From an uncultured Poribacteria bacterium (GTDB taxonomy: Bacteria > Poribacteria > WGA-4E > WGA-3G): a stretch of 64,000 bases of DNA. The notes below the pieces were generated by a model. The model did no database searches, was not told the DNA's origin, and was given only the letters and a program-made list of their open reading frames with translations. This document shows, piece by piece, positions 36,720 through 51,063 of the stretch. The position numbers and the translations under genes are program-made. The stretch is taken from assembly GCA_951812525.1 (NCBI GenBank), contig OX638316.1:868001-932000 (forward strand), in the 5' to 3' direction. How positions within the stretch are numbered: the stretch's first letter is position 1; each line of letters begins with the position of its first letter.

Positions 36720-39047
36720 ATGGATTCTTTGAAAGATATTATTCAAGACTGTCACCAACAGCGGAAAAAATCGCTTCGACAACGAAAAACAATCGTAACA
36801 CCGGCACTCTATAAGGGCTATCCTTATCACTTCACTATCCATTGTGCCCGAGGATATCGGGTCAGACTCCATGATCTGGAGCAGGCTGATATCTCCTTTA
36901 TGCCGATAGGACACGCTCCTGAGTCCGACCATCCGCCAAGGGATTTTGGAGGCGAACGCTTCTTAAAACGTCAAGTAACACAAGACTGGATACGCAGACA
37001 ATGGTTTGAATCGTGGGGAATTCACGTGTACACTGGCATTCCTTCCGCAAGAGAGGGCGCGCAATGGCACGACATTAATTTCAAATATGATGCTATTTGC
37101 GCTGCACCAGATGCCGTTTTTGCTTGTATTGAGAAACTCATCGATTCAGTTGTGAATCCACTGTTGACATTGACGAAATCTGGTGGATTGCGGTTTTCTT
37201 GTAGAGTACCGGATTACCTCCATCCAAATACTAAACAGGAGAGACAGTATATCCACAAATACAGACCGACCCTAGACAACCCACACCATCGCGACATTTA
37301 TCTTGAAATTTTAGGGGACAAAGGACACAATTGCTGGGATGGACGTCATGAAATCTTGTTAGGTGCCTTGTTGGATCCACCTGTGATTATGAAAGACGTT
37401 TTGTTCGCGCCTATTGACACTCTCCGTAATGCGCTGCATGAACCTGCTCCATCATTAGAAGAAACCTCGGAAGTTACTTTTCAATCGGTTATCGTCTCCC
37501 CGCCGGTGTCAGATCCCGTAAATGAGAAAGTGATTGCGATCCGAGAAGGGAAACTAAGTCCATTAGCAATAAAACGTCCGTCTCCAGTGTTACACAAGTC
37601 AGCGTATAAGGATTCGTCGCCAAGGTTTCCTGCTTTACGCGTTCTCGAACACAATGAGAAAACAGGGCAGCTTTGCGCAGTCAATGAAGCGGGAACACGC
37701 CTACAGTTTCTCGAAGTTAGTATATCGAAAGATGTATTGGATGCATGGAATATCCAATACCAAGGGAGCACTTTAGGGAACTTTGCGAAGGCTTTACTTA
37801 ATGCTTTAGAAAACAAAAGACACGTAGAAGACGGTAAGGTCGTCACACGCGTTCACACGGTAATAGAGGCATTTGAGGGGCAGGAGGAGATACTTGTTCG
37901 ACAGATGGACACAGAGAATGTGAATCAGACTTTGTGGCACCAATTGAAACGTTTTTTTCAACATTACCAACGGGATGTCGATGCACCGATGATGTGGGAC
38001 GCTAGCGCGATGCGTTTTTGGGTGCCCTCGACACTCAATGATACATTCCCAGATGAAAAGATTGACGTTAATCGGGTTGAACCAACAGCGTGGTTGGCGG
38101 GAAACCGAGTTTTTCAGATTCGCACGGGTATTTATTCTGCGCATGATATTTTAAACTACGAAAACAGTTGGGATGATCTTGGACTCTCTGTAACCGGACA
38201 GCGGTTTTTTTCGGGTATCCGCGCAGAAATTGAGAGAGATCCAAACGTTCAGCATATACTCATCTGCAATCATCGTGCTGCCGAGCAGGTGGCAGACCTG
38301 ACATCAAAGGAAAACGTCCGTTTCCTACGCCATATTAAAAGAGCAGCCGATGTAGAAGTATTGCAGAGTGAATTTGAACTGGCAGATGTGATTTGGATCG
38401 TTGGTGCGCCGTACTGGCCACCGCACCTGATGTGGAAGCAAGCACAGATTTTGCTTGGAAACGATACCGAACCGCTGTGTTATGATGTAGAATTTAAGCC
38501 TTACCGTTATGAAGACGAACGGATCCAAGCACTGTGTGAACAGAATATTGTTGGTATTCTCACACAGATTATAAGACAGGCTGGACTGGATCGGGCAGAA
38601 AACAAGACAGTGGTATTGCTCACAGGGATGTCATTGCCTGAGATCACTAGCAGACCTGAAACATTGCTTTTTGACTGGGAAGATTTTGAGATTGCAGATA
38701 GACTCGATAAACTCGCAGAGACAATCACCACACGTCAGCGTTTTGAAGAGGAACGCGCGAACCTAACAGCGGAGTCCCATAGAGAGAAAGTTGTGGAGGT
38801 CTTGGGAGTCTCCAAAAGCCAAGCGAATCGTATTTTGACGAAACTTAGGGGTGGGAAACGTCCAACCATGCACGAGCAGATCCACACCCTTCTTGAAAGT
38901 GGCGACAAAAAGACAGCGGAATTAGTTTCAGCCATTGAGGGACATCCAAACGCCATAAAAAATGAACTCAAACGTCTCGTCGATACTGGTGAAATTGTAA
39001 AGGTTCGGCGGGCGGTCTACACGCTTCCGCCTTCGATCTCCTCATAG
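36720..39047 (+). CDS. Paralogue A: helicase-family protein lacking catalytic motifs
   Basis: 775 aa, first of four related genes. It shares the N-terminal domain (1-245; WHDINFKYDAIC at 116, LTKSGGLRFSCRV, WDGRHEILLG at 206) and the C-terminal HTH plus winged helix (about 685-770; VSKSQANRILTKLRGG, NAIKNELKRLVDTGEIVKV) with C and D. Compared with D it lacks the P-loop, the cysteine cluster and motif III. The Walker B equivalent reads NEAG (322-325) and motif VI reads IIRQAGLDR, with the GR pair lost. The frame is otherwise open and well conserved, so it is probably a non-catalytic paralogue rather than debris. No Shine-Dalgarno before the ATG. Function unknown. Confidence 0.8.
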   Translation: MDSLKDIIQDCHQQRKKSLRQRKTIVTPALYKGYPYHFTIHCARGYRVRLHDLEQADISFMPIGHAPESDHPPRDFGGERFLKRQVTQDWIRRQWFESWGIHVYTGIPSAREGAQWHDINFKYDAICAAPDAVFACIEKLIDSVVNPLLTLTKSGGLRFSCRVPDYLHPNTKQERQYIHKYRPTLDNPHHRDIYLEILGDKGHNCWDGRHEILLGALLDPPVIMKDVLFAPIDTLRNALHEPAPSLEETSEVTFQSVIVSPPVSDPVNEKVIAIREGKLSPLAIKRPSPVLHKSAYKDSSPRFPALRVLEHNEKTGQLCAVNEAGTRLQFLEVSISKDVLDAWNIQYQGSTLGNFAKALLNALENKRHVEDGKVVTRVHTVIEAFEGQEEILVRQMDTENVNQTLWHQLKRFFQHYQRDVDAPMMWDASAMRFWVPSTLNDTFPDEKIDVNRVEPTAWLAGNRVFQIRTGIYSAHDILNYENSWDDLGLSVTGQRFFSGIRAEIERDPNVQHILICNHRAAEQVADLTSKENVRFLRHIKRAADVEVLQSEFELADVIWIVGAPYWPPHLMWKQAQILLGNDTEPLCYDVEFKPYRYEDERIQALCEQNIVGILTQIIRQAGLDRAENKTVVLLTGMSLPEITSRPETLLFDWEDFEIADRLDKLAETITTRQRFEEERANLTAESHREKVVEVLGVSKSQANRILTKLRGGKRPTMHEQIHTLLESGDKKTAELVSAIEGHPNAIKNELKRLVDTGEIVKVRRAVYTLPPSISS

Positions 39048-39105
39048 GGTTGATTAACAGTAGTTGAAAAACTATAGATTTCAGTAATTTTATTCTAAAA
39101 AACCG

Positions 39106-39134
39106 TTGACTTTTTTCGTCGAAAATGGTATAAT
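39106..39134 (+). promoter_or_regulatory. Promoter upstream of tnpB
   Basis: TTGACT (39106-39111), 17-bp spacer, perfect TATAAT (39129-39134). Could be part of the insertion or belong to the array, as similar TTGACT boxes precede B, C and D. Confidence 0.65.
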
Positions 39135-39138
39135 AATA

Positions 39139-39227
39139 ATATCGTGTTGGCAAGCATGACAAGCGTAGTCGCAAGGCTACGTGCTTGCCTTCCCACTTGT
39201 CAGGGATAAAGGCACGATACACGATAT
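39139..39227 (+). other. Nested inverted repeats in tnpB leader (IS605-type left end)
   Basis: Outer arms ATATCGTGT (39139-39147) and ACACGATAT (39219-39227). Inside are GCAAGCA / TGCTTGC (39150-39156, 39182-39188), TGACAAG / CTTGTCA (39157-39163, 39196-39202) and CGTAG / CTACG (39164-39168, 39177-39181). The two 7-bp pairs interleave, so they form either alternative stems or a pseudoknot. Subterminal hairpins of this kind mark IS200/IS605 ends. Confidence 0.65.
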
Positions 39228-39230
39228 ACC

Positions 39231-40319
39231 ATGATTTTACGAACACAGAAGATAGAACTCAATCCGAATAATAAGCAATCCACGCTTATGTCCCAACACG
39301 CTGGCTATGCTCGTGTTGCTTTCAACTTCGCATTGTCGTCTTTCAATGCGGGTTTGGAAGTTGACGAATGGCGAACCTATCAAGACATAAAGCGTGAGTT
39401 CAACGCTGTCAAGCGTGATAGGTTTCCATGGTGTGACGGCTTATCGCAGAATGCCTCCAAGAATGCTATCCACAACTTCGGTGATGCCCTGACCCGTTGG
39501 AAAAGTAAACAGAACCGATTCCCTACATTTAGGAAACGATCTGGTAAATGCTCTTACCAAGCAGACAATGGCGTGGGAACGGTTGAAGTCTACAAAAAGC
39601 GTATCAAGTTACCCAAGATTGGGTGGGTCCGTATGCGAGAGGCGTTGCGGTTTACGGGTGAGGTATCAAAGGTTGTGGTGTCCAAGCGGAACGGACGCTG
39701 GTTTGTTTCCATACTCGTTAGATGCGATAGTAGCAATTACACACACCAACCCACTCTATTTGATGATAAGCAACCGATAGGCATTGATGTAGGTATCAAT
39801 ACGCTTGCCACTTGCTCTAATGGTGTGAAATATGAGAATCCACGCCCTCTGAAGCGGTATCAACGCAAGTTGAGGCGTGCGAACAAGGCTTTATCGCGCA
39901 AGTCCAAAGGTTCACAGAATTGGCAGAAAGCAAAGAAACGGCTTGGTGCAGTCCACTATCGTATAGGTTGTATCCGTGAAGATACACATCATAAAGCATC
40001 AACGGCTATTGTTAAACGTGCATCTGCTATCGGTATAGAAACACTGAATATCAGCGGACTGCTCAAGAACAGACGGCTTGCGAAGGCGTTGTTAGATTCT
40101 GCGTTGTCTGGTTTTCTTACGATGCTGAAATATAAAGCAGATAGGCGCCGTGTATCTATCACACAAGCCAATAGGTTCTTTGCCAGTTCAAAGACGTGTA
40201 GCAACTGCGGACACAAGAAAACGGACTTGACGCTCTCGGATCGCACGTACCACTGCACAGGTTGTGGCTTTGAATGCGATAGAGACCTCAACGCGGCTAT
40301 CAATCTGTGTCCGGTTTAG
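39231..40319 (+). CDS. tnpB: TnpB-family RNA-guided nuclease (IS605 OrfB)
   Basis: 362 aa, full length for TnpB. It has the N-terminal helix-turn-helix/REC-like part, then the split RuvC triad: Asp in GIDVGINTLAT, Glu in GIETLNISG, and Asp in CDRDLNAAINL. A zinc finger with CSNCG and CTGCG lies between the last two. All active-site residues are present. TnpB uses an omega RNA made from the element's 3' end to cut DNA and keep the transposon. No TnpA transposase gene accompanies it, so it depends on one elsewhere or is immobile. It interrupts the interval between paralogues A and B. Confidence 0.95.
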   Translation: MILRTQKIELNPNNKQSTLMSQHAGYARVAFNFALSSFNAGLEVDEWRTYQDIKREFNAVKRDRFPWCDGLSQNASKNAIHNFGDALTRWKSKQNRFPTFRKRSGKCSYQADNGVGTVEVYKKRIKLPKIGWVRMREALRFTGEVSKVVVSKRNGRWFVSILVRCDSSNYTHQPTLFDDKQPIGIDVGINTLATCSNGVKYENPRPLKRYQRKLRRANKALSRKSKGSQNWQKAKKRLGAVHYRIGCIREDTHHKASTAIVKRASAIGIETLNISGLLKNRRLAKALLDSALSGFLTMLKYKADRRRVSITQANRFFASSKTCSNCGHKKTDLTLSDRTYHCTGCGFECDRDLNAAINLCPV

Positions 40320-40440
40320 AACATCGTCGTCGCCACGAGTTGCGAGGAGACGTAAAACGCCTGTGGAGTCCGTGTAAGACCTCATTCGGAGGCAGTGGGT
40401 GCTGAAGCAGGAAGTATGACAAGAAGTCTACGGATTTCTA
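40320..40440 (+). ncRNA. Putative omega RNA/right-end region of the TnpB element
   Basis: The sequence directly after the tnpB stop contains short stems (CCTC..GAGG near 40380-40392) and a GGTGCTGAAGCAGGAAG segment. By family rule the guide scaffold overlaps the tnpB 3' end and the guide is the flanking DNA. Exact ends not determined. Confidence 0.4.
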
Positions 40441-40770
40441 TAGGTTCTACACAACGGTAAAAATAGATACCGCTGCCAACGCTCTTACCTACAGTATTTC
40501 AGTCATACCAATATGCCGCACGGCTACGACTTGTGTAGTAACCTGCCCCCTGGTGTCCGACGGACAACACTACCACACATATTATAGATCTAAGTTCACA
40601 CCATTCGGAGAACGAACGTGTCTTCTGTCAACCCGATTTTCACCGGATGGTGGACTCACTTCCTACCTTTTACAGAAAAACCAAACATTTCTAATTAAGT
40701 CATAAAAACTTGAATAAAAAATCACATTTGTGATAGGATTTAATTAAGCTGAGACTTTTATTTTCCTAGG

Positions 40771-40809
40771 ATTGCTTCCACTTTGAAGCCATACTGGAAG
40801 CAATTTTTA
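40771..40809 (+). terminator. Hairpin with T-run upstream of paralogue B
   Basis: Perfect 10-bp arms ATTGCTTCCA (40771-40780) and TGGAAGCAAT (40795-40804), then TTTTTAT. It has the form of a rho-independent terminator. It may end readthrough from tnpB. Confidence 0.65.
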
Positions 40810-40899
40810 TACAATCAGCGAGTTGGGCATGAGATGCCAAATCATGTGAATCATTAAGGGTTTCTTCGAGAAAATTGGGAATTTCTCTGCAGATTTTAT

Positions 40900-40928
40900 T
40901 TGACTTATAAGTCATACTATGGCATAAT
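40900..40928 (+). promoter_or_regulatory. Promoter for paralogue B
   Basis: TTGACT, 17-bp spacer, CATAAT. The TTGACTTATAAGT start and the CATAATTA around the -10 recur at 47320-47350 before paralogue D. Confidence 0.55.
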
Positions 40929-41145
40929 TAGTCATAATAAGACATTTTATTTTACATGTTATTTTTATGAAAACAATTTCTTTATATGGATTTTCGAGAT
41001 TTACCCAGTATTTCTACCGCAGTAGCAATTCAGGTTACTGCCGCGTAAAGATATGATATCACAGCGTACCCAACTTTCTGGCACCGTTGCTGGGCGTTGC
41101 TCACAGATATTTATCAAATGAAAGAAACTTGCTGGAGGTATGGAG

Positions 41146-43506
41146 ATGAGAAGAAACAACCGACAATCCCGTTCTTATGGTCTAACTATGAATGCTTTTA
41201 ACAATCTCATTCAACGTTGTCATCAACACAGGGAACAGCCGCTGCGACAGCGGAAAACAATCGTAACACCCGCGCTCTACAAGGAGTATCCTTATCATTT
41301 CACTGTCCAGTGCGCCCGAGGGTGTCCTGTGAGACTCTATGACCTCGAGCAGGCTGACATCTCATTTATGCCCATAGGACACGCGCCCAAGGCAGACCAT
41401 CCACCTAAGGATTTTGGCGGTGAACGATTCTTAAAACGACAAGGAACGCGAGACTGGATTCCCAGACGATGGTTTGCATCGTGGGGCATCCAGATTTACA
41501 CCGGGGTCCCCTCCGGGTGCCAAGGAGCGCAATGGCACGACATCTATTTTAAGTATGATGCTATTTGCGCTGCACCAGACGCTGTTGTTACCTGCATTGA
41601 GGCACTCGTTAACGCCGTCGCGAACCCGCTATTGACGTTGACAAATTCTGGGGAACTCCGCTTTTCTTGCAGAGTCTTGGATTACCTCCATCCAAATAAC
41701 GAACAGTCAACGGAGTATATTCATAGACACCGACCGACCGCAGACAATCCATATCACCGTGACGTGTATCTCGAAATCCTTGGGGAAGCAGGATATAGCC
41801 GCTGGGACGGACGCTATGATATTTTGCTTGGCAATCTGTTAGACCCACCTATTATCACCAAAGAGGTTCTCTTTGCTTCGATTGATGTGTTTCGCGAGGC
41901 ACTACATGAACCCGCACCACCAGTAGCAAATAACTTGGAACCTGCTTCTCAAGCTGCCTCTGTCGTGACATCGATGCCAGCACCTGTAGATGAGAAGGTG
42001 ATTGCGGTGCGGGAAGGGAAACTGAGTCCGTTGGCGATAAAACGTCCATCTCCTGTGCTGGACAAGTCGGAACATGACTACTCACCGCGAGACGTTTCTA
42101 CTTTGTGCGTTCTCGAACACGACCAGAAAACTGGCTGGCTTTGTGCCGTCGACGAAACAGGATCACATTTCTCGTTTGTTGAAATTAGTATATCGAAAGA
42201 CGTATTAGATGCATGGAGTGTCAACCAACAAGGTAATACTTTACGGAACTTCGCAAAAGCTTTACTCAATGCTTTAGAGAGCAAAAGCGAACTTTATGAG
42301 AATCCTGTTAGACGCGTGCGCATGACAATGCAAGCATTTGAGGCGCAGGAGGAAACGCTTATTCAGCAGATGCACGAAGATAATCTGAATCGGACGTTAT
42401 GGCACCAGTTGAAACGTTTTTTTCAACATTACCAGCGGGATGCCGATGCACCGATGGTGTGGGACCAAGGCGTGCTGCGTTTCTGGGTACCAGCACTCCT
42501 GAATGGTGAAAAGACATTGCCAGATGCAGTGAAAAACAGCGAATTGGAATCCGGACTATTAAGAAACCGAGTTTTTCAGATTCGCACGGGTATTTATTCT
42601 GCGCATGATATTTTAAACTACGAGAACAGTTGGGATGATCTTGGGCTCTCTGAAATCGGGCACCGATTTTTTTCCGGTATTCGCGCAGAAGCTGAGAGAG
42701 ATCCAAACGTCCAACACATCCTCATCTGCAATCAACAGGCTGCTGAACAAATGCCAGATCTTACATCAATGGAAAATGTTCGTACCCGGAGCCATATTAA
42801 AAGAGCAATCCATGTAGAAGCGTTGGGAAGTGAATTTGAGCTGGCAGATGTGATTTGGATCATCGGTGCACCTTATTGGCCCCCACCTCTTATGTGGAGG
42901 CAAGCACAGGCTTTGTTTGGAGACGATGAAAAACCGCTCTGTTATGATGTAGAGCTTAACCCGTACCGCTATGAAGACGAACGGATCCAAGCACTGTGTG
43001 AACAGAATGTCATTGGTATCCTTACAGAGATTATAGGTCAAGTGGGGTTGAACCGCTTGTCAAACAAGACAGTCGTACTGCTCACTGCTATGCCCCTGCC
43101 TGGTATCACTAACGGACCTGAAACATTGCTTTTTGACTGGGCAGACTTTGAGGTTGCTGATGGACTCGACAAACTCCCTGAGGTAATAGCCGAACGTCAG
43201 TGTTTTGAAAACGAACGGGACAATCTCACTGCGGAGTCCGGTAGAGAGAAAGTAGAGGAGATCTTGGGAATCTCCAAAAGTCAGGCGAACCGTGTGTTGA
43301 TGCAGCTAAGGGGTGGGAAAATCCAACGTGTTCCTTTCCACGAGCAGATTCACGCACTTCTTTCCGATGGTGAGAAAACGACAGCGGAACTCATTGACGC
43401 TATTGAGGGACATCCAGGTGCTGTGAAAAATGAGCTTAAACGCCTTGTTGATATAGGTGAGATTGTGAAAGTTCGTCGCGCCGTCTATGCCCTGCCGCCA
43501 GAGTAG
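41146..43506 (+). CDS. Paralogue B: helicase-family protein lacking catalytic motifs
   Basis: 786 aa from the ATG at 41146, chosen because GGAGG lies about 8 bp upstream, as in paralogue C; an ATG 6 bp earlier is too close to it. Same domain order as A: N-terminal domain (WHDIYFKYDAIC, LTNSGELRFSCRV, WDGRYDILLG), no P-loop or cysteine cluster, Walker B equivalent DETG in CAVDETGS, motif VI IIGQVGLNR (arginine changed to glutamine), and C-terminal HTH plus winged helix (GISKSQANRVLMQLRGG). It shares A's deletions, but its last ~150 residues and 5' leader are nearest to C. Probably non-catalytic. Function unknown. Confidence 0.8.
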   Translation: MRRNNRQSRSYGLTMNAFNNLIQRCHQHREQPLRQRKTIVTPALYKEYPYHFTVQCARGCPVRLYDLEQADISFMPIGHAPKADHPPKDFGGERFLKRQGTRDWIPRRWFASWGIQIYTGVPSGCQGAQWHDIYFKYDAICAAPDAVVTCIEALVNAVANPLLTLTNSGELRFSCRVLDYLHPNNEQSTEYIHRHRPTADNPYHRDVYLEILGEAGYSRWDGRYDILLGNLLDPPIITKEVLFASIDVFREALHEPAPPVANNLEPASQAASVVTSMPAPVDEKVIAVREGKLSPLAIKRPSPVLDKSEHDYSPRDVSTLCVLEHDQKTGWLCAVDETGSHFSFVEISISKDVLDAWSVNQQGNTLRNFAKALLNALESKSELYENPVRRVRMTMQAFEAQEETLIQQMHEDNLNRTLWHQLKRFFQHYQRDADAPMVWDQGVLRFWVPALLNGEKTLPDAVKNSELESGLLRNRVFQIRTGIYSAHDILNYENSWDDLGLSEIGHRFFSGIRAEAERDPNVQHILICNQQAAEQMPDLTSMENVRTRSHIKRAIHVEALGSEFELADVIWIIGAPYWPPPLMWRQAQALFGDDEKPLCYDVELNPYRYEDERIQALCEQNVIGILTEIIGQVGLNRLSNKTVVLLTAMPLPGITNGPETLLFDWADFEVADGLDKLPEVIAERQCFENERDNLTAESGREKVEEILGISKSQANRVLMQLRGGKIQRVPFHEQIHALLSDGEKTTAELIDAIEGHPGAVKNELKRLVDIGEIVKVRRAVYALPPE

Positions 43507-43615
43507 AAACATCAGTGGTTAGTAGTACTCAGCAGTCAGTCCACTGCCGAAGATTCACTTGACTTTTAATGCTAACTATAATATTTTGGGTCAGGTCATT
43601 GCTGGAGGTACAGAG

Positions 43616-46600
43616 ATGAGAAGATTCAACCAACGACCGCGCCCCCACGATCTAACTATGAACTCTTTAAAAAATCTAATTCAACGTTGTCACCAACGGC
43701 ACAAGAAACCACTTCGACAGCGGAAGACAGCGGCAACACCTGCCCTTGATAAGGGGCGTCCTTTTCATTTCACGGTTCAATGCGCCTGGAAATACCCTGT
43801 AAGGCTCTATGAACTCGAGCAAGCAGACATCTCTTTCATGCCGATAGGGCGCGCGCCCCATTATGACCACGGTCCAAGAGATTTTGGCGGTGAACGGTTC
43901 TTCAGACGGCAACACCCGGAAGACTGGAATATCCTACTCTGGCAGAGATCATGGGGTATTCAAATCTATACTGGCATACCTTCAGAATGCAATGATGCAC
44001 AATGGCACGACATTGATTTTAAGTATAGTGCGATTTGTTCTCACCCAGATGCTGTTTTTGCTTGTATCGAGGCACTCCTCATTTCCGTTGCGAACCCATT
44101 ATTGACGCTGACAAAGTCCGGCGGACTCCGCTTTTCTTGCAGGGTGCAGGATTATCTCCATCCGAATACTGACGATGCGAAGTATTACATCTATAAACAC
44201 ACATCGACCCTAGAAAATCCATATCACCGTGATGTGTACCTCGAAATCCTTGGAGAGTCAGGCTACAGCCGCTGGGATGCGCGCTATGAGATTCTGATCG
44301 GGAATCTATTAGATCCGCCTATTGTCGCCAAAGAAGTCCTCTTTGCTCCGCTTAATGTGCTTCGCGAAGCACTTCACGAACCTACACCATCCGGAGAAAA
44401 GGAATCCGAGTTCACTGCTCAAACTGAGACTGCCGCACCACCATCTCTGGGTTCGTATAACCTGGACCTCGCAAGAGATGTATTTTTGAGACGAGGATTT
44501 TTTTATATCCGAGAAGATAATAGCGTTCATTACTGGAACCGACCGGGCAGCATCGTTGGTGATGGAAACGTATCGCTATGGGAGCAAGAAGGTGGTGTCT
44601 GGGTTCGCGCATCTACGCCCAATACTGGTCTCCCGACGGAAGCAACACTCATAACAGATATCTGGGACGATACGGGTATCTTGTCACCGTTACCAGCTAC
44701 CGGATTGCCTGTGTCTGAGCAGATGCTTGCAGTTCGGGAAGGGAAACTGAGTCCACTGGCGGTAAAACGTCCATCTCCCGTGCTGTGCAAGCCAGAATCC
44801 ACAGAAAAGACTTACGGCACACTCGCAGAAAACGCCACTCAAATGGAGCGTGTTTTCAATGGGAACGCTCGCATTCTCGGACTTATTGCCGAGACAGGAG
44901 CAGGGAAGAATTACGCAGTAGAATCTTATGTCCGCAACGGCGGTGTAATCAGTTTAGCCTCGAAACCTCTGTTAGCAGCAGAAACAGAGCAACGCTTTCA
45001 AAAACGAAACCTATCGTCTTTTCTGCGCTGGAAACCTCGGATGCACTTGTGGGATCAGGTAAAAGATATACCGCTTGATATCCGGATAGCGACTCCCTTT
45101 CAACATGGAAATGTTTGCGAAGATCCTGAAAGGTGTGACACACTTGAGGCAAAGGGTGGAAATCCGAGCGAAAGTATCTGTCCGATGTGTCCGGTCTATA
45201 CAGAGTGTCAGCAGCACGGCTATTTATCGCAACTCACTACATTAAAAAACATCGACGCACAGATATTAGAAAACCCCACACTGTATTTAAATCCCGAATA
45301 CTCGGAAGTGACAGAAGAAATACTCAAATCGATCGATAATACAGAACGGCTTTGTATCATTGATGAAATGTCACCGCACTCCCTGTTCCTTTACTGCCGT
45401 GTAGCAAAGGAGACGTTAGTAGATTGGCGCGTAAACTGGCAACGGAGTGCTTTGGGATACTTTGCCAACGCTTTACTACATGCATTGGAAATCAAAAACG
45501 TACTTAACGATAATGCCGTCGGACGAATCCGCGCAGTGATGCACGCATTCACAGATCAAGAAAAAATGATCGTCCAACAGATGTGCCAAGTGAATATGCA
45601 AGGTAAAGTGGTGGCGCGTGAACTTGTTGATGATGAAACTGACAGGTTGTTGGCGCGCCTTTGCATTGAGTTTGAGGGAGGTATCCATGCTTATATTCCT
45701 TTGGACTCTAACGCTGCGGACAAACTCGCGGCAAAAGGTCAACCTGCTTTTGAACTTGACTCCTTTGAAGTAGACACAGAGGTGAAGATCCCGATGTCGA
45801 TGACCCAAGCCATTGCGTTGGGCACCCTAGAGGCATCAACCGTAGAGAATATTCAAGCATTTCCACGCGTCTACCAGAATCCAAATTGGACGCTTTGGCA
45901 TCAACTCAAACGTTTTTTCGCGTATTATACGCGAGATGCAGATGTCCCGATGTTATGGACTCGCAAGAATATACAGTTCTGGATACCACCGGTATTGCAT
46001 CCGAGCCTCAAACGTCTGCTGTTTATATCGTCAACGCTCTCTGAGTACTATCTCCGTAAGGCGTTTCCAGATGAGGAAATTGAAGTCACACACATCAAGC
46101 CGACGGCGTGGGTCCCAGGGAACCGAGTTTTTCAGATTCGCACGGGCATCTATCTACGACAAGCAATTTTTAACTACGACACCGACTGGGACGCTCTTGG
46201 CATGTCTAAAACGGGGCAGCGCTTTTTTCGCGGTATCTCCGCAGAAATTGAGAAAGATCCAAACGTTCAGCACGCGATTATCACCAACGCGCCAACACCA
46301 CAGCGATTGCAGCATATCGCAGCAAAAGAAAACGTTTGTCTCGTGACGAATTATAAAGCAGCAGAAAGGTTCGGTACAACCTTCGAAGCAGCAGAAGTGA
46401 TTTGGATGGTCGGTGTACCGCACTGGACACCCGGTATCTATTGGAGAGAATCACAGATTTTGTTTGGAAACGACGAAAAACCACTCTGTTATGAGGGAGA
46501 AACGGAATCTAATACCTACAAAGACGAACGCGTCCAGAGTGTTTATAAACAGGATGTTGTTGGTTTACTCACACAGATTATAGGTCGAATCGGATTGAAC

Positions 46601-47053
46601 CGCTTGTCAAATAAGACGATTGTATTGCTCACGGCTATGCCATTGCCTGACCTTACCGATAGACCTGAAACATTGCTTTTTGACTGGGAAGACTTTGAGA
46701 TCGCCGGTGGACTCGACAAACTCCCTGAGGTAATAGCCGAACGCCAGCGTTTTGAGACGGAACGAGACAATCTTACTGCCGAATCTAGCAGACAAAAAGT
46801 AGAGCAGGTTCTGGGAATTTCCAAAAGTCAGGCGAACCGTGTGTTGATGAAACTGAGGGGTGGTAAAATCCAACGTGTTCCCTTCCATGAGCAGATCCAC
46901 GCACTTCTTGAAGGTGGCGAGAAAACAACAACGGAACTCATTGACGCTATTGACGGACACCCAGGTGCCGTAAAAAATGAACTCAAACGCCTCGTTGATA
47001 TGGGTGAAATTGTAAAGGTTCGTCGAGCGGTTTATGCCCTGCCGTCAGAGTAG
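43616..47053 (+). CDS. Paralogue C: DinG/XPD-like Fe-S helicase family, altered Walker motifs
   Basis: 1145 aa from the ATG at 43616, which has GGAGG about 8 bp upstream; a TTG at 43559 lies in the promoter. Domains: N-terminal domain (WHDIDFKYSAIC, SGGLRFSCRV, WDARYEILIG); a short insert with SLGSYNLDLARDVF and HYWNRPG; P-loop AETGAGKN (nt 44888-44911), where the usual Ser/Thr is Asn; a cysteine cluster C-x5-C..C-x2-C-x5-C (nt ~45115-45207); Walker B IIDEMS instead of DEAx; motif III LFISSTLS; motif VI IIGRIGLNR; C-terminal HTH plus winged helix. XPD/DinG helicases unwind DNA with an Fe-S cluster between motifs I and II. ATP hydrolysis by C is uncertain because of the changed motifs. Confidence 0.82.
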   Translation: MRRFNQRPRPHDLTMNSLKNLIQRCHQRHKKPLRQRKTAATPALDKGRPFHFTVQCAWKYPVRLYELEQADISFMPIGRAPHYDHGPRDFGGERFFRRQHPEDWNILLWQRSWGIQIYTGIPSECNDAQWHDIDFKYSAICSHPDAVFACIEALLISVANPLLTLTKSGGLRFSCRVQDYLHPNTDDAKYYIYKHTSTLENPYHRDVYLEILGESGYSRWDARYEILIGNLLDPPIVAKEVLFAPLNVLREALHEPTPSGEKESEFTAQTETAAPPSLGSYNLDLARDVFLRRGFFYIREDNSVHYWNRPGSIVGDGNVSLWEQEGGVWVRASTPNTGLPTEATLITDIWDDTGILSPLPATGLPVSEQMLAVREGKLSPLAVKRPSPVLCKPESTEKTYGTLAENATQMERVFNGNARILGLIAETGAGKNYAVESYVRNGGVISLASKPLLAAETEQRFQKRNLSSFLRWKPRMHLWDQVKDIPLDIRIATPFQHGNVCEDPERCDTLEAKGGNPSESICPMCPVYTECQQHGYLSQLTTLKNIDAQILENPTLYLNPEYSEVTEEILKSIDNTERLCIIDEMSPHSLFLYCRVAKETLVDWRVNWQRSALGYFANALLHALEIKNVLNDNAVGRIRAVMHAFTDQEKMIVQQMCQVNMQGKVVARELVDDETDRLLARLCIEFEGGIHAYIPLDSNAADKLAAKGQPAFELDSFEVDTEVKIPMSMTQAIALGTLEASTVENIQAFPRVYQNPNWTLWHQLKRFFAYYTRDADVPMLWTRKNIQFWIPPVLHPSLKRLLFISSTLSEYYLRKAFPDEEIEVTHIKPTAWVPGNRVFQIRTGIYLRQAIFNYDTDWDALGMSKTGQRFFRGISAEIEKDPNVQHAIITNAPTPQRLQHIAAKENVCLVTNYKAAERFGTTFEAAEVIWMVGVPHWTPGIYWRESQILFGNDEKPLCYEGETESNTYKDERVQSVYKQDVVGLLTQIIGRIGLNRLSNKTIVLLTAMPLPDLTDRPETLLFDWEDFEIAGGLDKLPEVIAERQRFETERDNLTAESSRQKVEQVLGISKSQANRVLMKLRGGKIQRVPFHEQIHALLEGGEKTTTELIDAIDGHPGAVKNELKRLVDMGEIVKVRRAVYALPSE

Positions 47054-47655: not shown

Positions 47656-50600
47656 ATGAATTCCTTGAAAGGTATTATCCAGCAGTGCCATCAACGTCAT
47701 GAGAAACCTCTGCGGCAGCGCCGGACAGTAAGAACACCCGCGCTCTATAAGGGGCTGCCCTACCATTTCACCGTCTATTGCGGGCGGACATATCCTGTAA
47801 AACTCTATGAACTCGAACAGGCAGGTATCTCTTTTATGCCGATAGGACGTGCCCCTCACTACGATCACGGTCCAATGGATTTTGGGGGTGATCGGTTCTT
47901 CAGACGCCAAGGCATAGAGGATTGGAATCATGAGCTATGGCACAGATCATGGGGACTTCAGGTATACACTGGTATTCCGTCTGAACGCGACGGTGCACGC
48001 TGGCACGATTTCCAATTTAAATATGAAGCCTTATGCATCGCACCCGATGCTGTTCTCGACTGCATCGATACACTTATTAGTGCTGTTGCGAACCCTCTAC
48101 TGATGATTACAAAGACCGGTGGGCTCCGCTTCTCTTGTAGAATACCGGATTACCTTCATCCAAATACCGAGGCGGCAAAGCAATATATCTATAAACACAC
48201 GCCGACTGTGGGAAATCCGAATGGGCGCGATGTATACCTCGAAGTTTTTGGGGAAGAAGGATATAGTCAATGGGATGCGCGTTACGAGATTTTGCTTGGG
48301 AATCTGTCAGATCCACCTGTGATTTCTAAAGAGGTCCTTTTTGCCTCTGTTGATGCCCTTCGCGATGTCCTCCACGAACCGGCACCGTCCGGGCAAGATA
48401 GCCTGAAACCTGTTCTGCAGACCGCCCCCACTGCGCCACCATCCCTCGGTTCCCATAAACTCGACCTCGCAAAAGAGGCATTTATTAAGTCCAGTTTTTC
48501 TTATGCTGGACAAGACAACGGAACGCATTACTGGACCCGACCCCCGGGTGAAGGTGAAACGTCAGAAGTATCACTATGGGAAAGCGATGGGATTGTGTGG
48601 ATATGTGCATCTACATCTAATACCGGGCTGCCGATGGAAGCAACATCCATAACAGATGTCTGGGACGATACTGGCATTCTGCCGCCGATACCATCAACGG
48701 GGCTACCTGTATCCGATAAGGTGATTGCTGTGCGAGAACGAAAACTCAGTCCACTGGCGATAAAACGTCCTTCCGCCGCACTCCACAAGCCAGAAGATAC
48801 AAACACGGTCTACCATACACTTGAAGAGAACGCTCTTCAGATACAGCAGGCTTTCGACCAGACGACACGCATCACTGGACTTATTGCCGAAACAGGTGCA
48901 GGGAAAAGCCATGCCGTAGAATCCTATATCCGCATCGGAGGCAGAATCAGCTTAAATGCAGGGTACTGGACAGTAGAAGAAATAGAACAACGCTTTCAAG
49001 AACACAACTTGCCACCGTTCGCACGTCACAGATCTCGGAGATATCTGTGGAATCAAGTAAAAGAAATACCTGTTGAGGTGCGGATGGCGAATCCTTTTCA
49101 ACACGGCAATGTTTGTGAGGACTTCGAGCGATGTGACGCCCTCGAGAAGAAGGGTGGGGATCCAAATGAAAGTATCTGTCCACAGTGTCCCGTCTATACA
49201 GCGTGTCAGGAACGCGGCTATTTATCGCAACTTGCTATACTCCAACACACCGAGGCACAACTGTCGGGGACACCTCGGCTGTTTTTGGATCCACGATACT
49301 CAGAAGTAGTAACGGAAATACTCAAACCAGTCGATAACACAGAGCGACTTTGCATCATTGATGAAGCACAAGCACCCAACCTATTTTTTGAATGTAATGT
49401 ATCAAAAAATACATTGGAAAAATGGTGTGTAGATTGGCGAGGAAGTGCCTTAGGAAACTTTGCCAATGCCTTACTCAATGCATTAGAAACCCAAAGTGAG
49501 TCTGAGGACAGCCCGATCAGACGGATCCGGACAGTAACGCTCGCATTTCAACAGCACGAAGAGAAACTTATTAGACAAATGTGCCAAGTCAATGTGCGGG
49601 GTAAGGTTATTGCGCGCGGCGTTGTTGACGCTGAAACTGGAGAGGGGTTGGCGCACTTTACTATTGGGTTTGAAGGTGGTGTTGCTGCTTATATCCCGCT
49701 GGATAATAACGCTGCAGATACCCTTAAAGAAAAAGGGCTGCCCTTCTTTCCGCTCGACTCCTTTACACCCAACGAGAATATAGAAATCGCAATGCCGATG
49801 TCACAAGCGATTCAATTGGGTATCTTGAATACAGAAACCACACAGAATATTGAGGAATTCCCTACAGTCTATCCGGATCCAAACCAGACCCTTTGGCATC
49901 AACTAAAGCGTTTCTTTGCATATTATCTTCAGGATAACGATGCACCGATGATTTGGCATAACAAAGTTCTGCGGTTCTGGATGTCACCGATATTGCATCC
50001 GAACGTCAAACGCCTTTTGCTCATGTCGTCAACGCTCTCTGAAGAAGATTTACGCATAGCATTTCCAAGTGAAGAAATTAATGTTATTCGTATCAGACCG
50101 ACAGTATGGGTTTCGGGAAACAAGGTTTTTCAGACGCGCGCAGATATTCACGCCGTACAAACGCTGTTAGAACACGATCAAAGTTGGGATGTTATTCGCA
50201 TGTCTAAAACCGGACAGCGCATTTTTATGGGGATCCAAGCAGAGATTGAGAGGGATCCAAGCGTCAAGCATGCTATTGTTACCTACAGTCCAATTGCCAG
50301 ACAATTGACAGATTTTTCAGAAATGGAGAACGTCTGCTTTGTGACGGATTTCAAAACGTTGGAAAAGTTGGAGGAAGCTTTTGAAGCGACAGAAGTACTC
50401 TGGATAATTGGTATACCAATTTGGGAACATGGCATCATTTGGCGGCGAGCGCAGATTTTGTTCGGAAACGATGAGACCCTCCTTTCCTACGACCCAGGAA
50501 TAGGATCCATTCGCTATAAAGATGAACGGGTTCAAAGTGTTTACGAACAGATGGTTACTGGCACACTCAAAGATATTATAGGTCGTATGGGGTTAAACCG

Positions 50601-51063
50601 TTTCACAGATAAGAAGGTAGTGCTGGTCAATAACATGAAACTGTCCAATATTACCGACAGATCTGAAACACGCCTCTTTGACTGGGAAGATTTTGAAGTT
50701 GCTGGTGGGTTGCATAGGCTTGAGGAAACGATACGCACACGCCAGCGGTTTGAAACTGAACGTGCGAACATAACAGCCGATACCAGCAGAAATGAAGTAG
50801 AACGTATATTGGGATGCTCCTCACGGCAAGCAAACCGTTTGTTAAAAAAACTTAGAGGTGGGAACATTCCACGCGTTCTCTTCCGCGAACAGATCTTCTC
50901 TCTTCTTGCCAGTGGTGAGAAAAGGACATCCCAACTGGTTGATGCGATCGAAGGACACCCAACATCGGTAAGAAATGAACTCAAGCGTCTTGTCGATGCC
51001 GGCGAGATTATAAAGGTCCGATGGGGCATCTATGACCTCCCGTCAAATTATCCACATCGGTAG
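47656..51063 (+). CDS. Paralogue D: DinG/XPD-like Fe-S helicase with N-terminal unknown domain and C-terminal winged helix
   Basis: 1135 aa and the only paralogue with all helicase motifs. Residues 1-245: unrecognised domain (WHDFQFKYEALC at 116, TGGLRFSCRI at 154, WDARYEILLGNL at 206) with faint PrimPol-like order. About 262-350: insert with SLGSHKLDLAKEAF and HYWTRPPG. 411-418: Walker A AETGAGKS. Cys487, 493, 508, 511 and 517: probable 4Fe-4S site. 569-572: DEAQ. 791-793: SST (motif III). 974-982: IIGRMGLNR (motif VI). About 1045-1130: HTH (CSSRQANRLLKKLRGG) plus winged helix (SVRNELKRLVDAGEIIKV). The order motif I, Fe-S, DEAx matches XPD/DinG. A DNA helicase tied to replication, repair or defence is likely; the exact role is unknown. 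Confidence 0.85.
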   Translation: MNSLKGIIQQCHQRHEKPLRQRRTVRTPALYKGLPYHFTVYCGRTYPVKLYELEQAGISFMPIGRAPHYDHGPMDFGGDRFFRRQGIEDWNHELWHRSWGLQVYTGIPSERDGARWHDFQFKYEALCIAPDAVLDCIDTLISAVANPLLMITKTGGLRFSCRIPDYLHPNTEAAKQYIYKHTPTVGNPNGRDVYLEVFGEEGYSQWDARYEILLGNLSDPPVISKEVLFASVDALRDVLHEPAPSGQDSLKPVLQTAPTAPPSLGSHKLDLAKEAFIKSSFSYAGQDNGTHYWTRPPGEGETSEVSLWESDGIVWICASTSNTGLPMEATSITDVWDDTGILPPIPSTGLPVSDKVIAVRERKLSPLAIKRPSAALHKPEDTNTVYHTLEENALQIQQAFDQTTRITGLIAETGAGKSHAVESYIRIGGRISLNAGYWTVEEIEQRFQEHNLPPFARHRSRRYLWNQVKEIPVEVRMANPFQHGNVCEDFERCDALEKKGGDPNESICPQCPVYTACQERGYLSQLAILQHTEAQLSGTPRLFLDPRYSEVVTEILKPVDNTERLCIIDEAQAPNLFFECNVSKNTLEKWCVDWRGSALGNFANALLNALETQSESEDSPIRRIRTVTLAFQQHEEKLIRQMCQVNVRGKVIARGVVDAETGEGLAHFTIGFEGGVAAYIPLDNNAADTLKEKGLPFFPLDSFTPNENIEIAMPMSQAIQLGILNTETTQNIEEFPTVYPDPNQTLWHQLKRFFAYYLQDNDAPMIWHNKVLRFWMSPILHPNVKRLLLMSSTLSEEDLRIAFPSEEINVIRIRPTVWVSGNKVFQTRADIHAVQTLLEHDQSWDVIRMSKTGQRIFMGIQAEIERDPSVKHAIVTYSPIARQLTDFSEMENVCFVTDFKTLEKLEEAFEATEVLWIIGIPIWEHGIIWRRAQILFGNDETLLSYDPGIGSIRYKDERVQSVYEQMVTGTLKDIIGRMGLNRFTDKKVVLVNNMKLSNITDRSETRLFDWEDFEVAGGLHRLEETIRTRQRFETERANITADTSRNEVERILGCSSRQANRLLKKLRGGNIPRVLFREQIFSLLASGEKRTSQLVDAIEGHPTSVRNELKRLVDAGEIIKVRWGIYDLPSNYPHR

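Follow-up and report, generated by a model that had tools for sequence, protein, structure and literature searches.

Proteins that join an archaeo-eukaryotic primase (AEP) domain to a helicase are known as replication engines of plasmids. Poribacteria are uncultured symbionts of sponges, and little is known about the way in which they handle plasmids and phages.

The AEP active site has been described by three motifs, I (hhhDhD/E), II (sxH) and III (hD/E), and in DR0530-like AEPs the histidine of motif II is replaced by Arg or Lys (PMC5862659). Mobile-element genes that have been exapted and stand under purifying selection are treated in a review (PMC8987985).

The window considered here is a stretch of 64,000 nucleotides (G000:C1:868001-932000) from a Poribacteria genome, G000, which consists of a single contig of 5.06 Mb. 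ORF calling in the window reveals four paralogues, A, B, C and D, that form one array with the following features (window positions):

36720..39047, + strand: paralogue A, 775 aa, with an AEP-like domain, a reduced Arch, HD2 (the second RecA-like lobe) and winged helices, without HD1 (the first RecA lobe) (ORF, alignment, deletion blocks, dN/dS)
37065..37082, + strand: AEP motif I of A, WHDINF, second metal-binding acid replaced by N (motif as defined in PMC5862659, placed by eye)
37677..37694, + strand: remnant at the motif II position of A, AVNEAG (alignment)
38565..38594, + strand: motif VI position of A, QIIRQAGLDR (alignment)
39231-40319: IS605-type TnpB gene between A and B (Pfam)
41140..43506, + strand: paralogue B, 788 aa, architecture as A (ORF; AlphaFold2 model, mean pLDDT 80.3)
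41260..41916, + strand: AEP-like domain (primase-polymerase fold) of B, residues 41-259 (VIA-align match to pRN1 ORF904, 1ro0)
41533..41550, + strand: AEP motif I of B, WHDIYF, second acid replaced by Y (alignment; motif placed by eye)
42112..43176, + strand: XPD/DinG-type helicase remainder of B (Arch remnant and HD2), residues ~325-679 (VIA-align, Foldseek)
42145..42162, + strand: remnant at the motif II position of B, AVDETG (alignment)
43027..43056, + strand: motif VI position of B, EIIGQVGLNR (alignment)
43321..43503, + strand: C-terminal winged helix of B, residues 728-788 (VIA-align)
43559..47053, + strand: paralogue C, full-length (ORF, motifs)
44891-44911, + strand: P-loop of C, GAGKN (motif alignment)
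45116-45208, + strand: cysteine cluster of C (motif alignment)
47656..51063, + strand: paralogue D, full-length, AEP-like domain, XPD/DinG-type FeS helicase and winged helices (AlphaFold2 model, mean pLDDT 84.8; folds, motifs)
48889..48909, + strand: P-loop of D, ETGAGKS (motif alignment)
49114..49206, + strand: five-cysteine cluster of D, CEDFERC...CPQCPVYTAC (motif alignment)
49354..49371, + strand: motif II of D, IIDEAQ (motif alignment)

The sequence GGAGG lies a few bases 5' of the start codon of B, and motif II of C reads IIDEMS in the motif alignment. An orthologous array, conserved one to one with A-B-C-D, exists in G053; since TnpB is missing there, where the gap measures about 565 bp, its presence between A and B is probably due to a later insertion. 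Similar TnpB genes are found near other family copies (L121, L125, L148 and L152). Rfam gave no match anywhere in the window.

By its predicted fold, D combines an AEP with an FeS helicase of the XPD/DinG type and with winged helices. In the model, the pRN1 AEP primase 1rni aligns with residues 38-243 (VIA-align Z 10.6, rmsd 3.3, 171 aligned) and the XPD fold with residues 387-1021 (Foldseek 4a15, E 1.2e-8; helicase core against 6ro4_B, VIA-align Z 10.8, rmsd 5.1, 481 aligned), and VIA-align recognises a winged helix at the C terminus. The motifs of D also follow the XPD/DinG order, i.e., P-loop, cysteines, DExx, Arch, motif III and second lobe. For B, residues 41-259 match 1ro0 of pRN1 ORF904 (VIA-align Z 10.4, rmsd 3.3, 172 aligned) and the winged helix matches Z-alpha and ArsR-type winged helices (Z ~10); the match of the second helicase half to XPD/DinG chains is weak (Z 8.3-8.9, the stated background being 7-8), and Foldseek aligns the helicase remainder with 2vsf at E 3.5e-3. 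Since B retains an AEP part, half a helicase and a winged helix, A and B appear from the model to be primase-helicases lacking the first RecA lobe. Walker A (GxGK[ST]) and DExx, which D possesses, are absent from both, and so is the four-cysteine cluster between motifs I and II that is found in D and in 52/52 full-length members of the family.

The AEP assignment is based on fold (Z ~10.4-10.6) and on motifs placed by eye. Pfam, PHROGs and NCBIfam name no family for these proteins, the Pfam Prim-Pol profile PF09250 matches none of them, and a sequence search of the PDB identified no family either (best E 1.6, winged helix only). Comparison of the family with 10 Prim-Pol proteins by hhalign gave a probability of 0.6%, not clearly above the 0.4% of a reversed control, and comparison with 12 Poribacteria DinG-type proteins gave 1.7%, the best stretch joining CPxY..C to DEA[QH]. 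The primase profile of the TOTE conflict system, PF22548, matched 0/30 genomes.

Compared with D, the same blocks are missing from A and B (residues 259-347, 385-402, 410-553, 645-739 and 782/784-800, a total of 363-365). They include the P-loop, the cysteine cluster, motif III and the entire ATPase lobe, and two further domains of D (259-347 and 645-739) have gone as well. A and B share 70% identity over 768 residues. An earlier note, made from the letters of this DNA alone, had described A and B as open frames without P-loop, cysteine cluster and motif III, with NEAG (A) and DETG (B) at the DEAQ position, and the ORFs and the alignment to D agree with this description. Its statement that the GR pair of motif VI is lost holds for A and B but not for their class as a whole, in which G000_4540k and a relative in G052 retain GR (ILGRTGLNR). 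Nor are the reference paralogues all intact: C has GAGKN and DEMS, and D alone has every consensus motif.

The family to which the four paralogues belong has been found only in two Poribacteria genera. Matches were obtained in 21/40 relatives, all from the genus of the window genome, and B as query matched 32/38 genomes of that genus. In the sister genus g12 all 12 searched genomes match, most of them having been chosen for earlier matches, and g11 gave 0/1. Across named genomes, the 77 loci returned were all titled Candidatus or uncultured Poribacteria. From the listings of the PMC open literature, no paper was recognised as treating a Poribacteria AEP-helicase family. The window genome alone carries 12 members. 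The A/B class comprises 9 members in 6/38 genomes of the genus, and a class T consists of 3 proteins of ~720 aa that lack nearly the same blocks.

Motifs were surveyed in 114/122 proteins, those of at least 600 aa, and the family alignment used 59/71 proteins after exclusion of 12 contig-cut or masked ones. Among the members whose alignment covers 90% or more of D, here called full-length (n=52), 15 have GxGK[ST] and another 6 GxGK, 20 have the DE of motif II and 17 the GR or GK of motif VI. At least four cluster cysteines are present in all 52, and nine members pass all four motif tests. Tree members with a cysteine region give the same picture: at least four cysteines in 63/63, with the P-loop lost in 42 of these. 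Of the members in the window genome, D alone matches the full consensus, and GAGKN is present in C and 3982k. The idea behind the earlier note, that A and B are two odd paralogues beside an active norm, is not supported: most full-length members have degenerate ATPase motifs, and the three genes of class T have lost near-identical blocks independently.

Several peculiarities of individual members deserve mention. In three members of G000 (1445k, 2924k and 4571k) one of the five cysteines is changed to Phe (CEDPERF) and four remain, which hints at the identity of the four that may act as ligands. On three contigs (L185, L187 and L188) a full-length copy is split at a similar place into two open frames of 448 and 653 aa. 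A sigma-54-activator-like gene (GETGVGKE) or a similar one, in a neighbourhood where genes were named via similarity clusters only, lies near L028, L032, L033, L136 and L146, in four cases upstream and on the opposite strand.

The AEP part has its own pattern of conservation, assessed with motifs placed by eye. The first acid of motif I, D118, is invariant (100/100 members), position 120 is D/E in 73/100 members and N and Y in A and B, respectively, and E196 is retained in 87/103. By class, position 120 is acidic in 14/16 intact, 49/61 ATPase-lost, 3/11 partial, 4/9 A/B and 3/3 T proteins. With motif I intact in these 4/9, some proteins of the A/B class may still polymerise. The motif II position is Arg in 104/104 members; it is not taken as a sign of inactivation, since the residue also occurs in relatives whose motif I is intact and since DR0530-like AEPs have Arg or Lys there, according to PMC5862659.

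Intact-type relatives outside the family indicate where these proteins may have come from. L243, a 918-aa protein of G019 with P-loop, cysteines, DEVN and motif VI, adjoins a gene for a Rep_3 initiator (Rep3_N 3.4e-15, Rep3_C 2.5e-18). The L243 module also contains an N4/N6 DNA methylase beside Rep_3 and the intact FeS-type helicase. L300 is a further intact-type protein with a Rep_3 gene on the same contig. With their Rep_3 initiator and intact FeS-type helicase, L243 and L300 are apparent plasmid-type replication modules. L299 (1048 aa), encoded close to a Dam-type methylase gene, bridges the family and the L243-type proteins: its AEP part shares 35% identity with D over 246 aa (E 2e-41) and its helicase 30% with L243 over 680 aa (E 4e-84). 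L242 has a related AEP part (32%) but a different helicase, again with a Rep_3 neighbour, and the contig of L245 is too short to display neighbours. From the Rep_3 genes we infer that the intact-type relatives are plasmids; the contig of one relative, tested for circularity, had no terminal overlap. Rep_3 was not found among the Pfam-scanned part of the genes around A-D.

The family tree was rooted on four outgroup proteins and contains 118 tips passing occupancy limits, 13 proteins being left out. All four outgroup proteins keep GK[ST], the cysteines, DExx and the motif VI arginine, and two adjoin Rep_3 initiators. On this tree the ATPase was lost 11 times under Dollo and changed 8 times under Fitch. 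The whole first lobe was lost twice, in the A/B class and in the T class, over near-identical blocks, and the common ancestor of the two classes spans 110/118 tips. The A/B class is monophyletic in the 118-tip tree with a support of 0.98; the AEP part alone (97-row tree set passing occupancy limits) does not recover it as a clade. The sister of the A/B class, a class of ~1007 aa, is ATPase-lost in 11/11 tips, and most members of the clade next to them are intact, so that the motifs probably decayed before the lobe was removed. The ~1007-aa class occupies a conserved locus together with a MoxR-like ATPase gene and others (L152, L155, L159, L160, L163, L171 and L182) and resembles a vertically kept gene.

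Measured against the G053 orthologues, dN/dS (NG86) amounts to 0.195 for A (bootstrap range 0.15-0.24), 0.188 for B (0.15-0.22), 0.211 for C and 0.162 for D, and to 0.05-0.09 for flanking genes; A and B thus resemble C and D. Together with frames free of stops in 9/9 members of the A/B class, the values for A and B support the selection for an ATPase-independent role that had been proposed from the sequence. Independent, non-overlapping pairs, chosen greedily by tree distance at a whole-gene dS of 0.1-1.6, have a median whole-gene dN/dS of 0.205 for intact (n=8), 0.214 for ATPase-lost (n=29) and 0.175 for lobe-less proteins (n=5), figures to be read with the reservation that dS is ~1 or above in many pairs and that inter-copy recombination can distort trees and rates. 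HD1 has a higher dN/dS than HD2 in 19/27 ATPase-lost pairs (Wilcoxon p 0.0019) and in 3/8 intact pairs (p 0.95), and the HD1/HD2 ratio differs between classes (p 0.017). Values are low in every class for the AEP part (medians 0.13-0.16) and the winged helix (0.11-0.15). The ATPase-dead lobe thus relaxes while the AEP and winged-helix ends stay constrained.

The explanation that we consider reasonably probable is that A and B are putative DNA-binding proteins without an engine, belonging to a chromosomal Poribacteria family that descends from plasmid-type AEP and FeS-helicase proteins. The ancestor would have been a plasmid-type replication protein in which an AEP primase and an XPD/DinG-like FeS helicase were combined. 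As the chromosomal family expanded, the ATPase would have become dispensable; point changes would have destroyed it many times, and on two occasions the entire first RecA lobe would have been removed. The parts retained by selection would be the AEP fold, the winged helices and the second lobe. Such descent, expansion, repeated motor loss and preservation of the ends point to a role in binding. Recognition of a DNA site or a replication intermediate would fall to the winged helix and the AEP surface, and A and B would occupy the bound site or recruit partners with neither unwinding nor priming. Architecture, repeated loss and its polarity, purifying selection and the exchange of cores in place can be read from the sequences, and we infer from them proteins without ATPase activity and, for A and B, without primase activity. 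DNA binding and site occupation presumably are the working mode of A and B, occupation of a DNA site being our best guess.

Binding could also serve immunity by interference with replication, in that the chromosomal engine-less copies would sit on the origin or the initiator of same-type plasmids entering the cell and poison their replication. We regard this as possible but rather doubtful. It would fit the descent from proteins encoded next to Rep_3 initiators, the retention of binding parts after loss of the engines, the variable copy number of the family and the faster evolution of its proteins relative to their neighbours, as well as the occurrence of intact-type relatives (E below 1e-50) in a few genomes of the phylum (4/84). 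However, these genomes are mixed, as G019 shows no chromosomal family copy whereas G069 and G081 show many. No plasmid record matches D, and PADLOC, whose only matches are weak ones of A and D to an AbiEi winged helix, yields nothing for B and C. With L243 as query, plasmid records gave one match covering 9% of its length and phage records no relatives; IMG/VR contained no relatives of the family or of L243. Equally tentative is the extension to a multicopy domesticated immunity set, in which each copy would block one plasmid type via its AEP and winged-helix ends and recombination would swap cores and ends. An exchange of the core in place is seen at a locus with flanks 87-92% identical, which holds an A/B-class gene in G010 and an ATPase-intact full-length gene in G013 (L116 vs L124). 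The AEP parts of the two share 79-91% protein identity and the C termini 84-91%, and the core, A/B-like in G010, is 42-59% identical, so that motor-less and motor-bearing forms share their ends.

It is unlikely that A and B are DNA-binding subunits of a complex in which D or another active helicase hydrolyses ATP. The four genes do stand in one array that is conserved one to one in G053, and the second lobe is maintained as though partnered, but in G044, a 95% complete draft with a gene of the A/B type, P-loop and DE do not occur together in any family member. The position of the A-B-C-D array is taken there by one A/B-class gene, and a C-terminal fragment of the family lies close by. Likewise, none of the five members in the single contig of G005, which include no A/B type, has both motifs. 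The hetero-oligomer envisaged in the earlier note is disfavoured by G044 and G005 insofar as it requires an active partner from the family. A partner might instead come from outside the family, e.g., the separate DinG-type protein that is present once per genome in 25/30 genomes examined.

Family fragments do exist (a 68-codon piece at G000:C1:1437131 and C-terminal pieces in G043, G044, G052 and G053), copies have visibly exchanged sequence, and in the A/B class the two closest pairs are less constrained (dN/dS 0.38, YN00 0.52; and 0.40, YN00 0.70 at a dS of ~0.01), as if A and B were decaying pseudogenes that are still open through short time or gene conversion. This is nevertheless very improbable. 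All nine class members, from 6 genomes, are open over at least 773 codons with 0 internal stops, dN/dS lies at 0.14-0.24 in 34 of 36 pairs with identities down to 63%, and the AEP part and winged helix are under tighter constraint than the remainder. Decay had been expected to reveal itself by a dN/dS near 1, stops or frameshifts in A/B orthologues, and this is not what the orthologues display.

Finally, family genes at L029/L136 and L033/L114 are 92-94% identical in mostly unrelated flanks, with homology running from near the start (or ~200 bp upstream) to less than 20 bp beyond the stop, so that single family genes change place; yet a selfish family spreading by recombination, with the short copies as non-autonomous passengers, is hardly credible, since passengers mobilised in trans would lose protein-level constraint and the loci of both the array and the ~1007-aa class are conserved.

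If A and B are indeed binding proteins without an engine, the repeated shedding of the motor under selection for the DNA-facing domains would mean that the value of the protein lies in binding rather than in unwinding. The family offers a natural series of intact, point-dead and, twice, lobe-deleted forms, with both forms at one locus, which permits a direct test of the non-catalytic job of a helicase-like protein.

Among described systems, the plasmid AEP primase-helicases (pRN1 ORF904, and here L243, L300 and L299) share with the family an AEP-like N-terminal domain (Z 10.4-10.6 to pRN1), a helicase with P-loop, cysteines and DExx, and a C-terminal helix-turn-helix. In contrast to them, the Poribacteria family consists of multiple chromosomal genes, most of them devoid of ATPase motifs, and A and B lack the entire first lobe. 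With the XPD/DinG FeS helicases of SF2 it has in common the order of motifs and domains and a fold match over residues 387-1021 of D; it differs by the AEP-like fusion, by ATPase motifs that are mostly degenerate and by the absence of a Pfam match. The DR0530-like AEPs likewise have an altered motif II (PMC5862659), which is Arg in every member surveyed here, whereas the second acid of motif I is variable in the family and lost in A and B. As with the exapted element genes reviewed in PMC8987985, a host appears to keep a gene derived from an element, but this family is multicopy and has shed its enzymatic core many times.
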